In this document: positions 52,335 to 62,769 of the stretch, one piece after another | Layout: each line of letters starts with the position of its first letter | How positions within the stretch are numbered: the stretch's first letter is position 1 | Source of the DNA: Clostridium sp. HBUAS56010 | GTDB taxonomy: Bacteria > Bacillota > Clostridia > Lachnospirales > Lachnospiraceae | DNA length: 64,000 nt | Assembly (NCBI RefSeq): GCF_007115105.1 | Contig: NZ_SULJ01000001.1 | Coordinates: 496,001-560,000 of the forward strand | Direction of reading: 5' to 3' | Notes under the pieces: generated by a model | Databases searched by the model: none | The model's input: only the letters and a program-made list of their open reading frames with translations | What the model was told of the DNA's origin: nothing | Made by a program: the position numbers and the translations under genes

Positions 52335-53561
52335 TTACTGCCTGTCAATATGTAAAATTGTATTTAACAGTACATTTGCCCCTTTCAGGCAGTTCTCCAC
52401 AGGTGTGTATTCAATCTCACAATGGCTGTGTCCTCCCACACTTGGTACAAAGATCATGGTAGTTGGAATGAGATCAATAACAAACTGGGCATCATGACCG
52501 GGACCGCTGTAGATTCTCCGGTTGGAATAGCCGCATCCCTGAGCACTCTTTTCCACGTAATCAACCAGCTCTGAGGTAAAGCTTACGGTCTTTCTCGCCC
52601 AGGCTTCTTCGTAGGTTACCTTACATTGTTCCACTGTACCTGGAATCTTTTTGATGACTGCAAGCACCTGTTTGATCACTTCCGGGTCCTGGTGTCTGGC
52701 ATCCAGGGTGAATCGGACTTCATCCGGAATAATGGTGTGAATGTTGGGATGTGCAGAGATCTTACCTGTGGTATACACCAGCTTGCCATCTAGCTGATCC
52801 AGTTCATCATGAAGATACTGAATGGTCTTTACAGCTGCGTAAAGGGCATCTTTACGGTATTTCATGGGCGTGGTCCCTGCATGGCCTGCCTGACCGGTAA
52901 AGGTAAACTCATAATTGATCATTCCACAGACCCCTTCTACAATCCCAATGTCAATTCCCTCTGATTCCAGGACCGGACCCTGTTCAATGTGAAGTTCCAC
53001 AAAAGCTTTGGCACTTGAAGAACTCAAACGGTTTTCTTCTTTTCCTTTAAATCCGCTTTGGTCAAGAGCCTCAGAAAACGTATATCCAGGAAGGTCTTTT
53101 GCTTCGGAAGCCAGCATGGCAGCTTTGTCAAACTTTCCGCAGATGACACCGGAGGACATCATAGCCGGTTCAAACCTTGCTCCTTCTTCATTGGTCCAGA
53201 CCATTACAGTAATCGGATGTCGATGAGGAATGTTCTCTTTTACAATGGTTTCTGCCACTTCCATTGCGGTTAAAACACCTAAAATCCCGTCATAATTCCC
53301 TCCCTGACGGACAGAATCCATATGGGAGCCGGAGTAAATAGCAGGAAGATTTTCTGTTCCCGGAATGGTTGCGTAGATATTTGCCATATCATCCGTAACC
53401 ACAGAAGCTCCAATGGCTTCCATGCGTTTCACAAATTCTTTTCTTGCGGCAACTGCTTCCTCTGATAAAGAAAATCTGGTAATCCCACCATTTCCCGTGT
53501 CACCAAACTGACCAAAGGTTTTAATTTTATCTTCCATTCTATCATAATTACACTGAATCAT
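52335..53561 (-). CDS. pydC: N-carbamoyl-beta-alanine amidohydrolase (beta-ureidopropionase, M20 type)
   Basis: About 408 residues from the ATG at 53561 (MIQCNYDRMEDKIKTF), with AAGGAGG upstream. An M20 metal hydrolase: AIYSGSHMDSVRQGGNYDGILGVL (His/Asp ligands), VMVWTNEEGARF (catalytic Glu), VELHIEQGPVLESEG, GQAGHAGTTPM and, at the end, SVGGHSHCEIEY. This is the carbamoylase/allantoate-amidohydrolase family. The preceding dihydropyrimidinase and PreA genes make N-carbamoyl-beta-alanine the likely substrate, giving beta-alanine, CO2 and ammonia. It is last in the operon. Confidence 0.88.
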   Translation of the reverse strand: MIQCNYDRMEDKIKTFGQFGDTGNGGITRFSLSEEAVAARKEFVKRMEAIGASVVTDDMANIYATIPGTENLPAIYSGSHMDSVRQGGNYDGILGVLTAMEVAETIVKENIPHRHPITVMVWTNEEGARFEPAMMSSGVICGKFDKAAMLASEAKDLPGYTFSEALDQSGFKGKEENRLSSSSAKAFVELHIEQGPVLESEGIDIGIVEGVCGMINYEFTFTGQAGHAGTTPMKYRKDALYAAVKTIQYLHDELDQLDGKLVYTTGKISAHPNIHTIIPDEVRFTLDARHQDPEVIKQVLAVIKKIPGTVEQCKVTYEEAWARKTVSFTSELVDYVEKSAQGCGYSNRRIYSGPGHDAQFVIDLIPTTMIFVPSVGGHSHCEIEYTPVENCLKGANVLLNTILHIDRQ

Positions 53562-53585
53562 CTTCTCTTCCTCCTTGAACACAGA

Positions 53586-55091
53586 TTATTTTTTCTTTTT
53601 CACTCTGGCACCTGGTGAAATTGCATTTGCAGGGCATACCAAAGCACAAAGATGACAGCCCACACACTTTTTCCCATCCATCACAGGCTGCCCGGTTTTC
53701 TCATCCTGCCTTAATGCCTGATGCCCGCCATCATAGCAGGACAGATAACATCTTCCGCATCCAATACATTTTTTACGGTCGAATTTAGGATAACATATGG
53801 AATCCCGGTCCAGTTCATCGGTTGGTATGGTGTGGACAAGAGATTTTCCTACAATCTCGCTGATACTTTTATAACCATGGGAACTTAAATAATGTTTCAT
53901 CCCTTCAATCATGTCCTCAATAATGCGGTATCCATATTGCATGACTGATGTGGTCACCTGAATGTTCTCACAGCCAAGAGCCATAAATTCAAAGGCATCC
54001 CTCCAGGTTTCAATTCCTCCCATTCCGCTGATGGGAATGCTGGTAAGCCCTTTGTGGGTCTTCATGGAATGAATGAAACGGAGCGCAATGGGTTTAACGG
54101 CTTTTCCTGAATATCCGCCCACGCTGGTTTTTCCTGCTACAAAAGGTCCCGATACAAAAGTATCTGTATCAACATTCATAATGCTTTTAATAGTGTTGAT
54201 GGCAGCAATTCCATCCGCTCCTGCTTCTACTGCGGCGAGTGCAGGAATCTCCATATTACCAATATTCGGCGTCATCTTTGCCAGAACCGGCAGATGAGTT
54301 CCTCTTTTCACAGCCCTGGTATAAGCAGCCACCAGTTCCGGATTCTGTCCCACATCGGATCCCAGCCCGTCTGCTGCCATGTGAGGGCAGGAGAAATTAC
54401 ATTCGATCATATCCGCTCCAGCTTCCGTAACAGCTTTTGCAAGATAAGTCCACTCTTCTTCGGTCTGCCCCATGATGGACGCAACAAAGATTTTGGTTTT
54501 ATAGTCTCTTTTCAAATCCCGGATAAAGGAAAGGTTCTCTTCTAATGTGTGATCGGAAATCTGTTCTATATTTTTAAATCCCACAAAAGGAACGGCTTCT
54601 TTCTTCATTGCGTCAAATCTAGGTGAGACTTCATTCGGCACAAAGACTCCGATGGTTTTAAATGCCACACCAGCCCATCCCATATCAAATGCTTTCGCCA
54701 CCATCTCATAATTACTTCCTACCACAGAAGAGGACAAAAAGAATGGATTTTCACAAGGTATTCCGCAGAAATCAATGGAAAGATCCACCTCAGCCAGATC
54801 TTCTTTTTCATAGGAAGCAATCTTTTCAAATATTCCTTTCACCGGCACCGGATTGCTGATCTTTCCTTTCAGACAGGCAGACATACAAGGCGTATCTTCA
54901 CATGTTTGGCACGGGAGTTCTTCCGGCTGGCGGTTTGCCGCTCCTGTTTTATTCTCAAACCGGTAGGAACGAATGATTTTATCCACTTCCAGTTCATATG
55001 GGCATGCCTTCCTGCAAGGTGCCTCATTGCATAAAAGGCACCCTCCAGTCTCCTCTAATAAGGAAGTTTCTTTATATAATAACTGATTCAT
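53586..55091 (-). CDS. preA: Dihydropyrimidine dehydrogenase, PreA type with N-terminal Fe-S segment
   Basis: 501 residues. Residues 18-31 ([14 protein letters not shown]) and about 60-72 ([13 protein letters not shown]) are two four-cysteine motifs like those at the N-terminus of PreT/DPYD. Then follows the FMN dehydrogenase core ([57 protein letters not shown]). At the C-terminus are two ferredoxin motifs ([23 protein letters not shown]). The FAD/NADPH domains of PreT are absent, and no PreT gene is in the operon. It reduces uracil or thymine. Where mammalian DPYD has its catalytic Cys, the loop reads GSDVGQ; I recall the same in E. coli PreA. Confidence 0.9.
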
Positions 55092-55107
55092 ATGATCACT
55101 CCAGACT

Positions 55108-56475
55108 CTATTTTTGCGGTTTTCGTTTTACATAGGTTCCAAATCCCGGAGTTCCTACAAATTCCCCATTGTCATATACCAGATGTCCTCTTACATACGT
55201 CTGCACCGGATATCCGTGTACCTTGATTCCTTCCCATATGGTGTGGTCGCAGTCTGAGTGCATGTTATCTGCGGAAATGGTCACATCCTTATCCGGGTCA
55301 TAAATAACAATATCTGCATCCTTTCCAACGGTCAAAGAACCCTTTTCGCTGCATCCAAAGATCTTTGCGGGATTGGCGGCACAAAGTTCAACAGCCCGGT
55401 TAAAGCTGATTTTGCCTTCATTGGCTTTGGACAGCATATATGGATATAAATTCTCGATTCCTGCACAGCCGTTTGGAATCTTTGTAAAATCATCTTTTCC
55501 CCAATCTTTTTCATAACTCTGGAATGGGCAGTGATCGGTTGCTACTGTATCAATGCTCCCATCCATAATTGCTTTCCAAAGAGCGTCCTGGCTTTCCTGC
55601 GCCTTAATCGGAGGAGAACATACGAAATTGCGTCCGTCTTCTCTTTTATAGACATCACTGGTGAACTCCAGATACTGAGGGCAGGTTTCAATATAGATCG
55701 GATGCCCTTCCCGCTTTGCAGCAACGGCTGCCTCTAAACCTTCTTTATTTGCCATATGGACGATGTAGAGAGGTGCTTCCACAGACTTTGCCCAATGTAC
55801 GGCACGTTTATCTGCCTCTGCTTCCACATACTCTGGTCTGCTTAAATAGTGATACCAGGCAGAGGTTTTGCCTTCTGCAAGAAACTGCTCAATGTTTAAA
55901 TCAATCACATCGGGGTTTTCCGCATGAATGTTGGTAATGGCTCCTGTTTCCTTTGCTTTTCTTAATATACGGACCAGGGTTCCGTCATCGACCATCATGC
56001 CTTCTTTTTTGTATACAAGGAAACATTTAAAACTGGTGATTCCGTAATCCACAGCCGCTTCAAACTCATCTAAAATAGTTCCTCCATTCAGATCGGTAAT
56101 ACAGCAGTGAAACGCATAATCCACACACGCCTCGGGATCGCATATGTTTTTTCGTTCCTCAACCGTTTCCACAAGCCCTTTTCCTTTTCTCTGGATGGGA
56201 TAATCAAAAACTGTGGTTACTCCGCCGCATGCCGCTGCCCTGGTTCCGGATAAATAACCGTCTGAGGAAACTGTTCCGCCAAAAGGCATTGCCAGATGGG
56301 TATGAACATCAATGGCTCCAGGTAAAACCATTTTCCCGGATGCATCTATTACTCGTTCTGCTTCTATTGTCAGATTAGTTCCAATACATTGAATTTTTCC
56401 GTCTTTTACTGCAATATCACCTGTAAATGTCTCTTCCGGTGTTACAATTGTTCCATTCTTAATCAGTAAATCCAT
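55108..56475 (-). CDS. hydA: Dihydropyrimidinase (D-hydantoinase family)
   Basis: 455 residues, an amidohydrolase. Metal ligands are His-x-His in [12 protein letters not shown], the carboxylated lysine in [11 protein letters not shown], histidines in [10 protein letters not shown] and [11 protein letters not shown], and the catalytic Asp in [12 protein letters not shown]. It opens dihydrouracil or dihydrothymine to the N-carbamoyl amino acid. It lies between the ABC binding protein and preA with gaps of 16-24 bp, one transcript. Confidence 0.93.
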
Positions 56476-56498
56476 TCTTTTTCCTCCTTGACGTTCTG

Positions 56499-57668
56499 TT
56501 ATTGATTTACTTTATATACAAGGACTAATCCAGATCTCTGATATACCTGGGCTACTGCAATCAAATCCATTCCTCCGGCATTGGCTGCAATCAGGTTGGC
56601 ATCCCAGGTTACTCCAAAATCAACCTGACCAGAATTAACTGCAGTTGTTTCTCCAATGTCTCCGCCGCCTGGTGTAATGGTTACATTTAATCCGGCATCT
56701 TTATAATATCCTTTGGCTTCTGCCACATAATATCCCATAAACTGTGCCTGAGGCAGCCATTTTAACTGAATGGATATATCTGTTTTTTCCGGTGCTCCCA
56801 GTTCTTCCCCGCTCATGGCAGCTTTCCAATAGGAGGTATCCCTGAAATCATCCAAAGTTAAGGTCTGTAACTTCTGTGCTGCTGCACTGTCATCTAATTT
56901 GATGTACTGTTTTGCCAGATCAAGGGTCTGCTGGAATGCTTCTTCATCCATGTTGCCAAGGTCTGTTACTTTGTTTCCTTTTGTATCCGTTTCCACCAGC
57001 TTTACAACTTCTTCTGCCATATAAGCCTGATGGTCACTGGATACTGAAGAACCTGCATGAAATACGATCTCTGCCGCTTCTTCCGGATTGGCACAGGCAT
57101 ATTCCCAACCCTTCATGGAAGCACGGACAAAGGCTTTTACGGTGTTTGGATTTGCCTCTGCAAATTCTCTTGTGGTAAAGATGTTATCTTCCAGCATGGC
57201 TACGCCTTCATCATTCATATCAATGGTCTTGACCGAATCTCCGTAAGCATATCCGCCTTTGTAAGTATTTTTTACAAGGCCCAGCTCATTAAAAGTCATT
57301 GCAGAAGCCAGCAAGATGGAGTCATCATCAAAACCGTCCATATCAAATGCCTGACTTAAAAATGATGTATCCTGCCCATATTTGGTCAAAAGAGCCTGAA
57401 CTTCATATTCATTTCCAAGTCCCCAGTTTCCTATCTTTCCTTTGCTTGCAGCATCGGCAATCACTTCCTGTGCTGTGGCATCTGCCAGATAATATTCTCC
57501 GCCTGTTTCTGTTTTTGGTGCGGCGGCTTCTTTTGATGTTGTGCTTTCTGCTGCCGAAGTTTCCTGAACGGTTTCACTTTCTTTGTTTCCTGCACAACCC
57601 GTTACTGCTGCAGTGGTAAGGGCAAGAGTTACTGCCATTGCGGTTAAAGTTTTTGTCTGTTTTTTCAT
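56499..57668 (-). CDS. ABC transporter binding lipoprotein, NMT1/THI5-like, circularly permuted
   Basis: 389 residues. Lipoprotein signal with lipobox VTGC (Cys25) and a Ser/Thr/Glu-rich linker to about residue 56. From about 77 the sequence matches the second and third segments of NMT1/THI5-like proteins (GKIGNWGLGNEYEVQALLTKYG, SAMTFNELGLV, NPEEAAEIV). Only at residues 297-389 does the canonical N-terminal segment appear (ISIQLKWLPQAQFMGYYVAEAKGYYKD to QRSGLVLVY). Ordinary family members have the reverse order. The break is at the usual hinge (between RSGLVLVYK and GKIGNWG). It presumably captures a pyrimidine or its catabolite for the following permeases. Confidence 0.85.
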   Translation of the reverse strand: MKKQTKTLTAMAVTLALTTAAVTGCAGNKESETVQETSAAESTTSKEAAAPKTETGGEYYLADATAQEVIADAASKGKIGNWGLGNEYEVQALLTKYGQDTSFLSQAFDMDGFDDDSILLASAMTFNELGLVKNTYKGGYAYGDSVKTIDMNDEGVAMLEDNIFTTREFAEANPNTVKAFVRASMKGWEYACANPEEAAEIVFHAGSSVSSDHQAYMAEEVVKLVETDTKGNKVTDLGNMDEEAFQQTLDLAKQYIKLDDSAAAQKLQTLTLDDFRDTSYWKAAMSGEELGAPEKTDISIQLKWLPQAQFMGYYVAEAKGYYKDAGLNVTITPGGGDIGETTAVNSGQVDFGVTWDANLIAANAGGMDLIAVAQVYQRSGLVLVYKVNQ

Positions 57669-57696
57669 AAATGATTCCTCCTCATATTGGTTGTGA

Positions 57697-58506
57697 CTAT
57701 TTTCTTCCTTTCAGCAAAGCACTTTCTGCTGCAAGCAATATTCCATACAAAATGATTCCCATGGCACATGCCACCACAATGTAGGCCCAGGCTGTTGCAT
57801 ATTGGGCAAGCACAATGTTTTCACGGATCTGTCTGCCTACTCCAATGATAAATTCAGCAAAATATTCGCTGACTAAAGCACTGATGATGCTGGCTGGTAC
57901 ACTGACTCTCAAAGCTACAAATATATAGGGAACACTGTTTGGAATCCTCAATTTTAAAAACACCGTTGTTTTCCCTGCCGCATAACTCTTCATCAAATCC
58001 AGGGAAAATGGTTTTAATTCATTCAGCCCTCTGTATGCGTTGATGCACATGGCTGCGGTACAGGTGATGGTAACTACAATCATTTTTGCTAACATACTTC
58101 TTATGTTGGCATCTTTGCTGAAATCCTTTGTTAAATTGTTTAAAATCGGAGCAATTGCAATGATGGGAACTGCACTGACTGCAGAAGCAATGCTAAGACC
58201 TCCTGCTCCCCATTTTGGAAAAAATGTTGCAATAGCACCCAACAGATATCCAAAAACAGAACCAAATAATAATCCTCCCATGGCTACAATCATGGTTGCC
58301 TGCACATTCTTCCAGACAGCCGGACCATTATCCATAACAATCCGAAGGATTCTGCCAGGTAAAGGAAGGGTAAATGTGTCTGCTCCGATTATTTTGTGTA
58401 AAATCTGTGTCTGCCAGAAAATCAGCAAAAGGATACCGAACAGCACAGGATAGAGCACTGTTTTTGCAGACTGTTTATCCCATTTAAAATGTCTTTTTCT
58501 CTTCAT
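57697..58506 (-). CDS. ABC transporter permease (second, TauC/SsuC-like)
   Basis: 269 residues with about six membrane helices. The EAA-type loop is seen as KSYAAGKTTVFLKLRIPNSVPYIFVALRVSVPASIISALVSEYF. Such permeases pair with NMT1/THI5-like binding proteins for pyrimidine-related and sulfonate compounds. It is 28 bp upstream of the binding protein and 11 bp downstream of the first permease. Two unlike permeases suggest a heterodimer. Confidence 0.92.
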   Translation of the reverse strand: MKRKRHFKWDKQSAKTVLYPVLFGILLLIFWQTQILHKIIGADTFTLPLPGRILRIVMDNGPAVWKNVQATMIVAMGGLLFGSVFGYLLGAIATFFPKWGAGGLSIASAVSAVPIIAIAPILNNLTKDFSKDANIRSMLAKMIVVTITCTAAMCINAYRGLNELKPFSLDLMKSYAAGKTTVFLKLRIPNSVPYIFVALRVSVPASIISALVSEYFAEFIIGVGRQIRENIVLAQYATAWAYIVVACAMGIILYGILLAAESALLKGRK

Positions 58507-58517
58507 GTCCTCTCCTT

Positions 58518-59333
58518 CTACTTTTTCTTCTTTTTCTTATAGGGGGATATGGTCTGTTCCAATAACACCATAACGTAAAAACTTGCAATTCCTATTACTG
58601 CACTTAAAAATACAATCTGCCAGAATATATAAATAGTTGTGGCGTGTTTTAAAGACTGGGACAGTGCAGTTCCAAGTCCAGCTCCGCCCTGAAGGGTATC
58701 CACAAGAATGGCGGCTGTAATTGCCATTGGTGCAGAGATCTTCAATCCGGTAAAGAAATAAGGCAGGGAAGACGGAATTAACAACTTCCGGTATATCTCA
58801 TATCTGCTTGCTGCAAGGGAATACATCAGTTCATGTTTTTCCTTTGCAACGGACTGAAATCCGGCTAAGGTATTGGTTGCCACCGGATAAAAAGTTAAGA
58901 TGGCGGCAATGATGATCCTGCTTTTGTCAATATCTTTGGTGATGGCAAGAACAATTGGTGCCATACCAAGAATGGGAATCATCTGGATCATCATCAGATA
59001 AGGAAATAAAATCTTTTCAAGCGGTAAGAATAAACTCATGAGAAGGGCAAGTAAAAATCCTGCTCCTGCTCCTATGACAAAACCAGTTCCTGCCCTTAAA
59101 AGCGTGATTCCTGCATTGCTTAACACCATCTGAAAGGCAGTCTGGGTTCCATTTACCTTCTGTGTATCAAAGACCGAATCCAGAATCTGATACAGGTGGG
59201 GGAGCACATTCTCAGGAGTTCGTTTGGTTCCCTCTATTACGGCTGCGCCTATTTCCCATACAACAATAAGTCCAATCACCCAAACAAGGGTTACCATGTA
59301 TCTGGAGGACAGTATCTTTTTCATCTGAGTCAT
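58518..59333 (-). CDS. ABC transporter permease (first, TauC/SsuC-like)
   Basis: 271 residues with about six membrane helices and the EAA loop SLAASRYEIYRKLLIPSSLPYFFTGLKISAPMAITAAILVD. The conserved IPILGMAPIVLAI segment precedes it. It starts directly after the ATPase stop. The neighbouring permease at 57697 is related but clearly different, so the channel is probably heterodimeric. Confidence 0.92.
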   Translation of the reverse strand: MTQMKKILSSRYMVTLVWVIGLIVVWEIGAAVIEGTKRTPENVLPHLYQILDSVFDTQKVNGTQTAFQMVLSNAGITLLRAGTGFVIGAGAGFLLALLMSLFLPLEKILFPYLMMIQMIPILGMAPIVLAITKDIDKSRIIIAAILTFYPVATNTLAGFQSVAKEKHELMYSLAASRYEIYRKLLIPSSLPYFFTGLKISAPMAITAAILVDTLQGGAGLGTALSQSLKHATTIYIFWQIVFLSAVIGIASFYVMVLLEQTISPYKKKKKK

Positions 59334-59335
59334 AC

Positions 59336-60163
59336 TTATACCCCCTCAAAGCTGTTTCGAACCTTAGATACGAGAGCATTAAATTCCGGAGTTTCCTTCA
59401 TTTCAACAGGTCTTGGTCTTGGAAGGTCAATATCCACAACTGCCGATACACGGCCAGGGTGCGGGGAAAGGACCACCACACGGTCTGAGAGATAAACCGC
59501 TTCCTGAATATTGTGGGTTACAAATAAAATGGTCTTATTGGTCTTCTGCCAGATCCGGAGTAAATCTTCGTGAAGCTTTTCTTTTGTAAATTCATCCAGC
59601 GCGGAAAATGGTTCATCCATTAACAGAATCTCAGGACGAATTGCAAGAGCCCTTGCAATGTTGACTCTCTGCTGCATTCCACCGCTTAATTCGTGAGGGT
59701 ACTTTTCTCCAAATTCCATAAGCCCTACCAGTTCAAGCATCTTCGTAACTCTTTTTGTTCTGTCTTTTTTTGGCATGCCCAGAAGCTCCATAGGCATACA
59801 CACATTTCTGCGGACCGTTCTCCACTCATACAGAACCGGTGACTGGAACACAATTCCGTACTTTTTTTGCAGGCGGATCTCCCTGGGCGTCAAACCACGA
59901 ACTGAAATGGTTCCAGATGTCTTTTCCTGTAAATCGGCAATGGTTCTAAGCAGGGTGGTCTTTCCACAGCCTGATGGTCCAAGAAGGGAAATAAATTCTC
60001 CCTGTTTGATCTCCAGATTCACATTGCTTAAAGCCACAATCGGTTCTCCCCCGTCTTTATCCGGGAATTTTACACTCAGATTTTCTATCTTAATCTCTGT
60101 TTCCCTTGGAAGAGAGGCATCTCTTTCTTTAAATTCTTCATCCATGATTTCTGCATTCATCAT
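59336..60163 (-). CDS. ABC transporter ATPase (TauB/SsuB-like)
   Basis: About 275 residues from the ATG at 60163 with AGGAGG 6 bp upstream. Walker A GPSGCGKTT, Q-loop YGIVFQSPVLYEW, signature LSGGMQQRVNIARAL, Walker B LLMDEPFSALD and H-loop FVTHNIQEAVYLSDR. The C-terminal end is short. It energises the importer encoded by the next three genes. Confidence 0.94.
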   Translation of the reverse strand: MMNAEIMDEEFKERDASLPRETEIKIENLSVKFPDKDGGEPIVALSNVNLEIKQGEFISLLGPSGCGKTTLLRTIADLQEKTSGTISVRGLTPREIRLQKKYGIVFQSPVLYEWRTVRRNVCMPMELLGMPKKDRTKRVTKMLELVGLMEFGEKYPHELSGGMQQRVNIARALAIRPEILLMDEPFSALDEFTKEKLHEDLLRIWQKTNKTILFVTHNIQEAVYLSDRVVVLSPHPGRVSAVVDIDLPRPRPVEMKETPEFNALVSKVRNSFEGV

Positions 60164-60257
60164 TTTAATCCTCCTGTTATGCAAACAAGGACGTAAAGCT
60201 TTTGCCTTACGCCCTTGTAAGTTTTGAAATATTTGTAGGAAGTCTTATGATCTAAAT

Positions 60258-61409
60258 CTAAAACAAACTACCGTATATGGTTAATATATCTTCTTTTGAT
60301 ATCTCTTTTCTGGAATTAGAAGGACTTCCGCTTGCCATTGCGTCCTCTGCCATCTTTTCTGCAACAGCTAAAAATTCTTCTTTTTTAATTCCATATTCAT
60401 AAAGCGTTGGGATCCCGCACCGGTTGCAAAGCTGATCCAATGCCTGTAAAAAAGCTTCACTGGCTTCCTTTTCTCCCATGCTCTTGTCACACACACCAAT
60501 CGCCTTTGCCATCTCTGAAAACCGGTCATAACAGCCATCGGTCACATAAGATAAGCATTTGGTAATGAGCATGGCGTTTGATATTCCATGGGGAACATGG
60601 AATAATGCACCAATTGGACGGCTCATTCCGTGAACCAGGGTTACAGACGCATTGTTAATACACACGCCGGCTTCAAAGGCGGCTATTGACATCTCTTCCC
60701 TCGCCTTTGAATCACTTCCTTGCTCATAAGCCAGAGGCAAATACTGAAAAATACGTTTCATTGCAGATAAGGCAAAGAGATCGGTCAAAGGATTTGCCTT
60801 TTTGGAGATGTATGACTCCACCGCATGGGTCAGCGCATCCATACCTGTTGCTGCGGTAATGCTCTTTGGAGCCGTCCGCGTAAATTCCGGATCAATGATT
60901 GCCACCTGGGGAAGCAGATCTTCTCCCTTTAAAAGCATTTTTATCCCTTTTTCCTTATCCGTAATAATCGTGAATTTCGTTGTCTCGGAACCAGTTCCTG
61001 CTGTGGTTGGGATCAGAACCAGAGGAGGAAATTCCCCGGTGATTTCTTTTCCCATATAATCTGCGATGGAACCCTCTAGTACTGCCATGGCCGCAATTGC
61101 CTTGGCACTATCCAAAGGACTTCCTCCGCCGATTCCAATCAAGAAATCACATCCGGACTCCTGATATTCCTTTACTCCTGCAAGTATCATCTCATCCGTA
61201 GGTTCACCAGTAATATCATTAAATATCTTATATTCCACGTTCCACTGGTCCAGATAATTGGTGAGGATTGATACGGTTCCCATCTTTGTAACTATTTTTC
61301 CTGTTACAATAAACGCTTTCTTTCCCAGTTTTTTTATTGCTTCTTCACTGCTCTTTAGCGCATTGTCACCAAGAATGGTTCTTCCTGGTAGTGTAAATTG
61401 AGCTGCCAT
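60258..61409 (-). CDS. Iron-containing alcohol dehydrogenase, probable malonate semialdehyde reductase
   Basis: 383 residues, type III dehydrogenase. The NAD(P) motif is GIGGGSPLDSAKAI. Metal ligands lie in ATGMDALTHAVESYIS (Asp, His) and LVHGMSRPIGALFHVPHGISNAML (two His). In this operon it probably reduces malonate semialdehyde, formed from beta-alanine by the aminotransferase, to 3-hydroxypropionate. The substrate is inferred from context only. It begins 18 bp after the aminotransferase gene. Confidence 0.88.
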   Translation of the reverse strand: MAAQFTLPGRTILGDNALKSSEEAIKKLGKKAFIVTGKIVTKMGTVSILTNYLDQWNVEYKIFNDITGEPTDEMILAGVKEYQESGCDFLIGIGGGSPLDSAKAIAAMAVLEGSIADYMGKEITGEFPPLVLIPTTAGTGSETTKFTIITDKEKGIKMLLKGEDLLPQVAIIDPEFTRTAPKSITAATGMDALTHAVESYISKKANPLTDLFALSAMKRIFQYLPLAYEQGSDSKAREEMSIAAFEAGVCINNASVTLVHGMSRPIGALFHVPHGISNAMLITKCLSYVTDGCYDRFSEMAKAIGVCDKSMGEKEASEAFLQALDQLCNRCGIPTLYEYGIKKEEFLAVAEKMAEDAMASGSPSNSRKEISKEDILTIYGSLF

Positions 61410-61427
61410 CCTCCACCTCTTTCCGGA

Positions 61428-62753
61428 TTATAAAAATTCCTTATCTACGATTGCCAGTACCTCTTCCACTTTGACCAGTCCTTCTTCCAACTGCTCTTTT
61501 GTGATGATTAACGGGGGTGCAATCAAAATCATATTTTCGTGGGTATAAGTCATAAATTTCCGTTCTTTTAAAAGGCCAAGAATCTTTCCCATAATTCCTT
61601 CCGGATCCTTTCCGTAAGGTACCAGTGCCTCTTTTGTTTCCTTGCTCTTTACCAGCTCAATGGCAGAAAAGAGTCCAATATAACGAACATCTCCCACACA
61701 GGCATAGGTTTTTTTCATATCTTCCAGCCTTTTTCCAAGAATCTGTCCCACACGGTTTACATTTCCTAAAATATCCGCTTCTTCATAGTAGTCGATACAC
61801 GCAACACCTGCTGCGCAGGAAAGTGGGTGACCGCTGTATGTAAGTCCGCAGGATAATAAATTCTCATCAAAGTAGGAAGCAATTTCCTTGCTGACTGCCA
61901 CTCCTCCAAGAGGAACGTATCCACAAGTAACACCTTTTGCAAATGTCACAATGTCCGGCTTGATATCAAAGTGTTCAAAAGCAAACATCTTTCCTGTTCT
62001 GCACCAGCCGGTCATAACTTCGTCACAAATCATTAAAATACCATATTGATCGCAAAGTGCCCGGACACCTGGTAAATATCCTTTTGGAGGAATGATGATT
62101 CCGTTCGAACCTGTAATGGTTTCCAGAACAATCGCTGCAATGGTATTGCCGCCTTCATACTGAATCTGTTCCTCTAATTTTGCCAGATAGTAGGCAGTTG
62201 CCTGTTCCTCTGAGTCAAACTCAACAGCTTCCCGGTAAACATATGGATCAAAAAATTTAACAAATCCAGGAACTCCAGGTTCCAGAGTATATCTTCTCGG
62301 TTCACCAGTTAAATTACCTGCTCCAAATGATGATCCGTGATAACTTCTGTAACGGCTGAAAACTTTATTTTTTCCGGTAAACATTCTTGCAATCTTTACC
62401 GCATTTTCATTGGATTCCGCTCCTGCATTGGTAAAGAATACTTTTCCCATGTTATCCGGCATCAGCTCAATGATCTTTTTGGCAAGTTTCGCTCTGGATT
62501 CTGCCCCGTAAGACGGTCCTACAAAACAATACTGGTCAACCTGATCTTTAATTGCCTGCCCAATCGCCTTGTTTCCAAAACCCAGATTCATGTTCACAAG
62601 CTGGGAAGACATATCGCTGTAGCGGTTCCCTTCATAATCCCAGAAATAAATGCCATCTGCTTTTTCTACTGGAATTGGATTTAAATTCTTTTGTTTGCTC
62701 CAGGACTGCAAGTTATATTCTTTTAATGTACTTTTGATTTCTTCACCATTCAT
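61428..62753 (-). CDS. Class III aminotransferase, probable beta-alanine:2-oxo acid transaminase
   Basis: 441 residues. The PLP site is ICDEVMTGWCRTGKMFAFEHFDIKPDIVTFAKGVTCGYVPLGGVAVS (Asp and Lys). Also visible are FFTNAGAESNENAVKIAR and RYRSYHGSSFGAGNLTGEPRR. This subgroup transfers amino groups from omega-amino acids. It leads the operon. I choose the second ATG (62753), which is 8 bp from AGGAGG, instead of the first at 2 bp. It would convert beta-alanine to malonate semialdehyde. Confidence 0.88.
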   Translation of the reverse strand: MNGEEIKSTLKEYNLQSWSKQKNLNPIPVEKADGIYFWDYEGNRYSDMSSQLVNMNLGFGNKAIGQAIKDQVDQYCFVGPSYGAESRAKLAKKIIELMPDNMGKVFFTNAGAESNENAVKIARMFTGKNKVFSRYRSYHGSSFGAGNLTGEPRRYTLEPGVPGFVKFFDPYVYREAVEFDSEEQATAYYLAKLEEQIQYEGGNTIAAIVLETITGSNGIIIPPKGYLPGVRALCDQYGILMICDEVMTGWCRTGKMFAFEHFDIKPDIVTFAKGVTCGYVPLGGVAVSKEIASYFDENLLSCGLTYSGHPLSCAAGVACIDYYEEADILGNVNRVGQILGKRLEDMKKTYACVGDVRYIGLFSAIELVKSKETKEALVPYGKDPEGIMGKILGLLKERKFMTYTHENMILIAPPLIITKEQLEEGLVKVEEVLAIVDKEFL

Positions 62754-62769
62754 GATCATTTCCTCCTAC

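Follow-up and report, generated by a model that had tools for sequence, protein, structure and literature searches.

One of the closest described systems is TpMglB-2 (Tp0684) of Treponema pallidum, a naturally permuted glucose-binding lipoprotein classed as 'Type Ic/Cluster Bc' (PMC4990184). The canonical N-terminal strands of TpMglB-2 lie near its C-terminus, in about the last 70-100 residues, and the homologues of its permease are distributed similarly to TpMglB-2 itself; its authors raised membrane tethering as a possible factor favouring the topology (PMC4990184). Binding proteins of type II have one discontinuous lobe, as stated in PMC10601554.

In the NMT1/THI5 family, ThiY (PDB 3ix1), THI5 and THI13 (PDB 4h65 and 4esw) have their segments in canonical order and bind or make precursors of the thiamine pyrimidine. 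Here we describe an NMT1/THI5-like protein, P0001, that resembles TpMglB-2 in carrying its canonical N-terminal strands near the C-terminus. TpMglB-2 has a type I fold and binds glucose (PMC4990184), whereas P0001 belongs to another family and would bind another ligand.

Segment order in P0001

P0001 is encoded within the window, the 64,000-nucleotide stretch of Clostridium sp. HBUAS56010 DNA that was analyzed. The gene and the parts of its product are as follows.

56499..57668, (-): permuted NMT1/THI5-like substrate-binding lipoprotein P0001, 389 aa plus stop (open reading frame, Pfam matches)
57594..57668, (-): residues 1-25, signal peptide including the lipobox Cys25 (sequence; motif only)
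57486..57593, (-): residues 26-61, low-complexity, non-conserved tether linker (alignment of 86 permuted proteins)
57444..57485, (-): residues 62-75, stretch of the permuted form, a putative helix, where canonical proteins have the connector from hinge strand to lobe 2 (alignments)
56811..57443, (-): residues 76-286, equivalent of the canonical chain after the putative first crossover as far as the canonical C-terminus, which would comprise lobe 2 and the second half of lobe 1 (alignments, HMM)
56781..56810, (-): residues 287-296, linker fusing the old C- and N-termini (alignments)
56511..56780, (-): residues 297-386, canonical mature N-terminal segment, now C-terminal and ending in RSGLVLVYK, the putative hinge strand (alignments, HMM, PDB match)

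The NMT1 profile PF09084, which all 63 members of set A1 match at E 0.001, scores 108 bits on P0001 against a curated gathering score of 20.5, and does so in two stretches. In the whole-genome scan with this profile, positions 89-216 fall at window 57075-57458 and positions 2-83 at window 56502-56747; as transcription of the gene runs towards lower window coordinates, the protein matches the later profile part first. The two stretches cover the 216-position profile with zero overlap, such that two segments tile the canonical domain once in reversed order, and a collinear N-to-C match is absent. With positions 89-216 ahead of 2-83, P0001 is a permuted relative and not an ordinary PF09084 member.

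The same swap is seen against structures. Residues 297-378 of P0001 align to residues 7-89 of PDB chain 4nmy and residues 153-210 to residues 186-243, and the segments are swapped likewise in the alignment to 3ix1; both P0001 segments align in each case, to chains that are in canonical order. None of the 7 matching PDB sequences was collinear over the whole permuted profile. When P0001 was re-permuted in silico to canonical order, its partial matches of 149.6 and 114.5 bits became one collinear match of 267.8 bits, with the full-sequence score nearly unchanged (259.6 to 268.2). These results confirm that P0001 is a circularly permuted NMT1/THI5-like binding protein. Domain tools report mere pieces of such a protein, and thus segment order matters for its annotation.

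The preliminary description of this DNA had proposed a circular permutation with swapped segments, which is borne out by the reversed NMT1 stretches, the swap against 4nmy and the 86/86 homologues analyzed below. Its segment boundaries hold, as G77 opens GKIGNWG and residues 297-386 contain DISIQLKW...RSGLVLVYK. The frame that it called unbroken is an intact 389-aa reading frame, the signal peptide has Cys25 at its lipobox, and the partner genes, two permeases and the cognate ATPase, are present at the locus. Aligned to PF09084 and to canonical members, the segments give reversed, non-overlapping stretches, and the domain search revealed no pair of complete or unrelated domains in canonical order: at E 0.001 Pfam gives NMT1 and NMT1_2 only. 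Peripla_BP_4 had no match on P0001 at E 0.001, and P0001 does not share the type I (Peripla_BP) ancestry of TpMglB-2. The further remark that no description of such a permutation was known stands for the NMT1/THI5 class, for which no description of a permuted protein was found in the literature searched (a scope that leaves most subscription journals aside), and needs qualifying for substrate-binding proteins generally, TpMglB-2 being a permuted one (PMC4990184). To our knowledge, the permutation is the first reported in the type II/NMT1 class, with the type I protein TpMglB-2 as the one prior natural case found.

Conservation and origin of the permuted order

Genome contigs scanned with P0001-derived patterns yielded 134 confirmed relatives, of which the best 80 were kept; each of these 80 loci contains one reading frame collinear with P0001. 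Such a frame was likewise found in 9 genomes of the family sample and in the window's own genome, giving 90 of 96 matching frames in all; five of the remaining six have canonical order and one (L002) matched in a single stretch. After a search of the phylum, 125 reading frames were sorted into 91 permuted, 25 canonical with both segments and 9 with too little matched to assign an order. Removal of identical sequences left 86 distinct permuted proteins, 55-85% identical to P0001, which answers the call in the preliminary description for homologues with the same order.

Segment order was scored with two HMMs, a sister HMM from 7 canonical sequences and a broader, independent HMM from 24 other canonical sequences, using the best two stretches that had at least 8 bits and at least 25 positions and ended beyond profile position 70. 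The 86 proteins were preselected as collinear with P0001, such that the figure counts independent sequences and not a frequency in the family, and each HMM found reversed order in 86/86 of them and in 0/20 canonical sisters (7 of which also built the sister HMM, while the broader HMM has none in common with these controls). The canonical sisters all matched in a single collinear stretch (20/20), and 0/86 shuffled controls gave an HMM match. A cruder rule found reversed order in 79/86 and 57/86 with the two HMMs, these counts being lower because N-terminal matches were scored. When five proteins were tiled with the HMMs in search of leftover duplicated segments, the halves shared no more than one profile position under the sister HMM, and a 9-position overlap (128-136) was seen with the broader HMM in two of the five (L079 and L098). 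In four of the five, extra N-terminal matches on the signal peptide and linker scored 4-6 bits with the sister HMM and 6-11 bits with the broader HMM.

A comparison of 5 permuted with 8 canonical proteins gave 43 invariant positions, 19 in the moved segment and 24 in the rest. For the one pair compared, P0001 and L061, dN and dS are 0.097 and 1.04 overall (a ratio of about 0.09), 0.072 and 1.52 for residues 62-286, and 0.020 and 0.67 (0.665) for the moved residues 297-386; the values for the 10-residue linker, 0.18 and 0.23, come from a stretch too short to weigh. At the level of sequence, these comparisons show that the permuted order is conserved and under purifying selection. An assembly error, which the preliminary description had named as a possible refutation, is ruled out by the agreement of many separate assemblies, including the complete chromosome NZ_CP121445.1 (L044), and together with a gene that is frameshifted or in decay, or a chance product of profile alignment, it forms an explanation for which we found no supporting point and which is already refuted by 86 distinct homologues with the same order, by homologue frames that are open and free of internal stops in the rows shown, by the low dN/dS and by the unmatched shuffles.

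The nearest canonical pyrimidine-operon proteins (L099-L102 and L163-L167, from the window's phylum) show 43-53% identity per segment. Such canonical proteins share the 43 invariant positions with the permuted form and have similar operons and partner genes; they differ in their canonical order (20/20), their canonical connector and the lack of a linker between the old ends. A tree was built from 52 of the 86 permuted proteins, put into canonical order, together with 20 canonical sisters and 4 outgroups. It places the permuted form in a single clade (100/100 support) that lies within the canonical proteins. This clade is sister to the group formed by L101 and L163-L167, in a join that unites two long branches, is flagged as possibly false and has a bootstrap that is not fully settled. 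The permutation appears to have happened once.

The members of the permuted clade are Clostridia and some spirochaetes. This is similar to the distribution of TpMglB-2 relatives, which come chiefly from treponemes and Gram-positive bacteria, often gut commensals (PMC4990184). The six spirochaete proteins of the tree group at two separate points within the Clostridia, which suggests horizontal transfer of the permuted form. Its prevalence is patchy: it is present in 10 of 200 family genomes (the window's genome is one of the 10), in at least 2 of 398 genomes of the phylum sample, where at least 7 of 398 have a canonical form in two strong stretches (at most 4 candidates scored per genome), and in 1 of 149 of the spirochaete sample, namely the centre genome itself. 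Among 24 genomes with the permuted form, a second match at E 1e-6 was absent in 16 and a single weak one (8e-10 to 9e-7) was present in 8; in no case did a second match reach the strength seen for canonical pyrimidine forms from this phylum. Thus, no strong canonical pyrimidine copy was seen beside the permuted form in these genomes.

The standard route to a circular permutation is a tandem duplication with fusion in frame and removal of the outer parts, and this one probably arose in that way; no intermediate was found. In the window's genome, no other binding protein with reversed order was found at 7 other NMT1 places, several of which matched in one partial stretch only, nor did any of the 15 of 17 Peripla_BP_4 places examined have two reversed stretches. 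Two of the latter (L187 and L190) look like LacI-type regulators by eye. Phage records contained no match. Matches occurred in 62 plasmid records, in none of which a single place accounted for 80% of the query, and the order was canonical in 9/9 of those examined for it. Elsewhere, canonical NMT1 proteins were seen in long reading frames of 533-793 aa (L111, L119, L152 and L153), and the region behind the NMT1 domain of L111 and L119 resembles a sensor kinase by eye.

Predicted topology and lipid tethering

Canonical relatives have a strand with the ending L-V-x-K, then a short connector (TSKGINSPADLKG in L101), then the next strand. In the permuted form the L-V-x-K strand closes the chain: 1-7 residues come after it in 79/86 proteins and 12 in one, and the motif was not located in 6/86. 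The permuted chain starts with the non-conserved linker, continues with its own stretch (residues 62-75) and then reaches GKxGNWG, and its old C-terminal end (near residue 286) leads to the old mature N-terminus (residue 297) via about 10 residues. The sequence TLDDIRDTSY, ahead of the joining linker in P0001, is well conserved in the alignment of 86.

From the alignment and general knowledge of type II binding proteins, we infer that the chain was cut at the first lobe crossover, which would render the discontinuous lobe continuous and leave one covalent crossing. It is highly likely that P0001 folds as the usual two-lobed trap with lobe 2 first, lobe 1 continuous and one covalent crossing instead of two, and that its lipid tether departs from the hinge region and no longer from lobe 1. 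The TpMglB-2 permutation adds a fourth crossover (PMC4990184), whereas the NMT1 permutation should remove one of two. As TpMglB-2 is also of type I, the NMT1 permutation is an independent event in another fold class.

A lipobox Cys was found in 75 of the 86 permuted proteins by motif and in 3 more by eye, which leaves 8 without one. The 8 are seven spirochaete proteins (L038, L048, L056, L064, L066, L067 and L071) and L051, and they are apparently secreted free rather than lipid-anchored. Among canonical sisters, 13/20 have the Cys, including all 12 of the window's phylum. Thus, tethering neither requires the permutation nor always accompanies it, and the Cys-less permuted members, set beside those 12 sisters, argue against the idea, raised for TpMglB-2, that tethering alone explains such topologies. 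Because canonical and permuted forms occur in comparable operons, effects of chain order can be tested side by side, and export folding, hinge motion, tethering and permease docking are all open to such comparison.

Operon, ligand and transporter partners

The genes around P0001 are listed below with the number of contexts of the permuted form that contain a homologue; there are 80 such contexts, some of which end early at contig ends.

52335..53582, (-): M20-type amidohydrolase of the hydantoinase/carbamoylase family, probable N-carbamoyl-beta-alanine hydrolase by inferred substrate (45/80)
53586..55091, (-): PreA-like dihydropyrimidine dehydrogenase subunit, Fer4_20-like stretch at its N-terminus (70/80)
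55108..56475, (-): dihydropyrimidinase, TIGR02033 above cut-off (74/80)
57697..58506, (-): ABC permease 2, BPD_transp_1 by Pfam (80/80)
58518..59333, (-): ABC permease 1, BPD_transp_1 by Pfam (78/80)
59336..60184, (-): ABC ATPase by Pfam (76/80)
60258..61409, (-): iron-containing alcohol dehydrogenase, probable semialdehyde reductase by inferred substrate (37/80)
61428..62759, (-): class III aminotransferase, probable beta-alanine transaminase by inferred substrate (55/80)

Reductive pyrimidine breakdown leads to beta-alanine and on to 3-hydroxypropionate, and the gene set of the operon fits this pathway. The operon also resembles the uracil-degradation operons of gut bacteria, which in Anaerostipes hadrus act on 5-fluorouracil (PMC11036815). 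In the PreA-like protein, the Fer4_20-like stretch (residues 5-94) scores 23.2 bits, just below the cut-off of 25.8. No PreT-like NAD(P)H reductase was present among the nine proteins scanned from 52335 to 62759, and therefore the electron donor of the PreA-like protein may be something else.

Leaving the ligand aside, P0001 is very probably a functional, naturally permuted binding protein of its NMT1/THI5-type ABC importer. A permuted protein that no longer serves the transporter and acts as a sensor or scavenging protein would suit the 8/86 members (7 of them from spirochaetes) without a lipobox Cys, which may be unanchored in the periplasm. Such a role is nevertheless very improbable: permease and ATPase homologues accompany the gene in 76-80 of 80 contexts, and canonical proteins share 43 invariant positions with the permuted ones.

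As the binding protein of this importer, the trap would close on a pyrimidine base or dihydropyrimidine and hand it over to the importer's permeases and ATPase, the genes of which lie immediately upstream. Judged from the operon, such a ligand is probable. Canonical relatives adjoin preA and dihydropyrimidinase genes in a Deinococcus (L154) and on a Klebsiella plasmid (L156), and genomes of the window's phylum also have canonical relatives in comparable pyrimidine operons. The context of another six plasmid relatives covers 1-1.5 kb on each side. A canonical relative in Azospirillum has no pyrimidine genes within 8 kb, and thus the tie of the wider family to pyrimidines is not absolute. Another cargo, for example hydantoins, ureido acids or a thiamine-pyrimidine precursor, would agree with the link of the PDB relatives of named role (3ix1, THI5 and THI13) to thiamine-pyrimidine precursors and with the name D-hydantoinase borne by the matching dihydropyrimidinase model TIGR02033. 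However, the PreA-like dehydrogenase in 70/80 contexts and the dihydropyrimidinase in 74/80 point to pyrimidine reduction and ring opening, and we consider a cargo other than pyrimidine bases or dihydropyrimidines unlikely.

The partners of the binding protein differ in how far permuted systems stand from sister systems. Mean identities between permuted and sister systems are 0.42 for permease 1, 0.41 for permease 2 and 0.45 for the binding protein, against medians within the permuted systems of 0.63, 0.59 and 0.74, respectively. The corresponding values are 0.65 and 0.64 for the ATPase, 0.67 and 0.66 for the dihydropyrimidinase, and 0.57 and 0.57 for PreA. With groupings fixed in advance for 20 permuted systems and 5 of 6 sisters, the stem of the permuted clade has a length of 0.98 for the binding protein, 0.99 for permease 1, 1.03 for permease 2 and 0.12 for the ATPase. 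The permeases may have been re-fitted to their permuted partner. In unconstrained trees, support for the permuted group is weak for the ATPase (0.42) and for permease 2 (0.56).

The long stem of the binding protein and permeases, and not of the ATPase, could also reflect exchange of the ATPase gene, along with those for dihydropyrimidinase and PreA, rather than adaptation of the permeases. The dihydropyrimidinase and PreA proteins of the sister operons (L128 and L174-L178) nest inside the permuted-operon set, which indicates that enzyme genes were probably exchanged between operons, and in sister operon L128 the dihydropyrimidinase and preA genes adjoin the ATPase gene. By contrast, the sister ATPases themselves fall outside the permuted set, if with the weak support of 0.42, and in comparison with the canonical operons L127 and L129 the permeases of permuted systems are about 10 points of identity below the sister permeases, the ATPases only 4. 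Weighing both sides, we give such an exchange a chance somewhat below even.

Re-fitting of the permeases bears on a broader and rather doubtful proposal, namely that a single permutation at the lobe crossover rewired the type II binding protein, forced both permeases to re-fit and, with TpMglB-2, would be a second independent case of the same kind that points to a common pressure. If true, the common pressure on these spirochaete and Gram-positive permutations would lie in tether geometry, export folding order or hinge stiffness. The sister operons L128 and L174-L178 look mosaic, their enzymes being near those of the window operon and their permeases and binding protein far apart from them.
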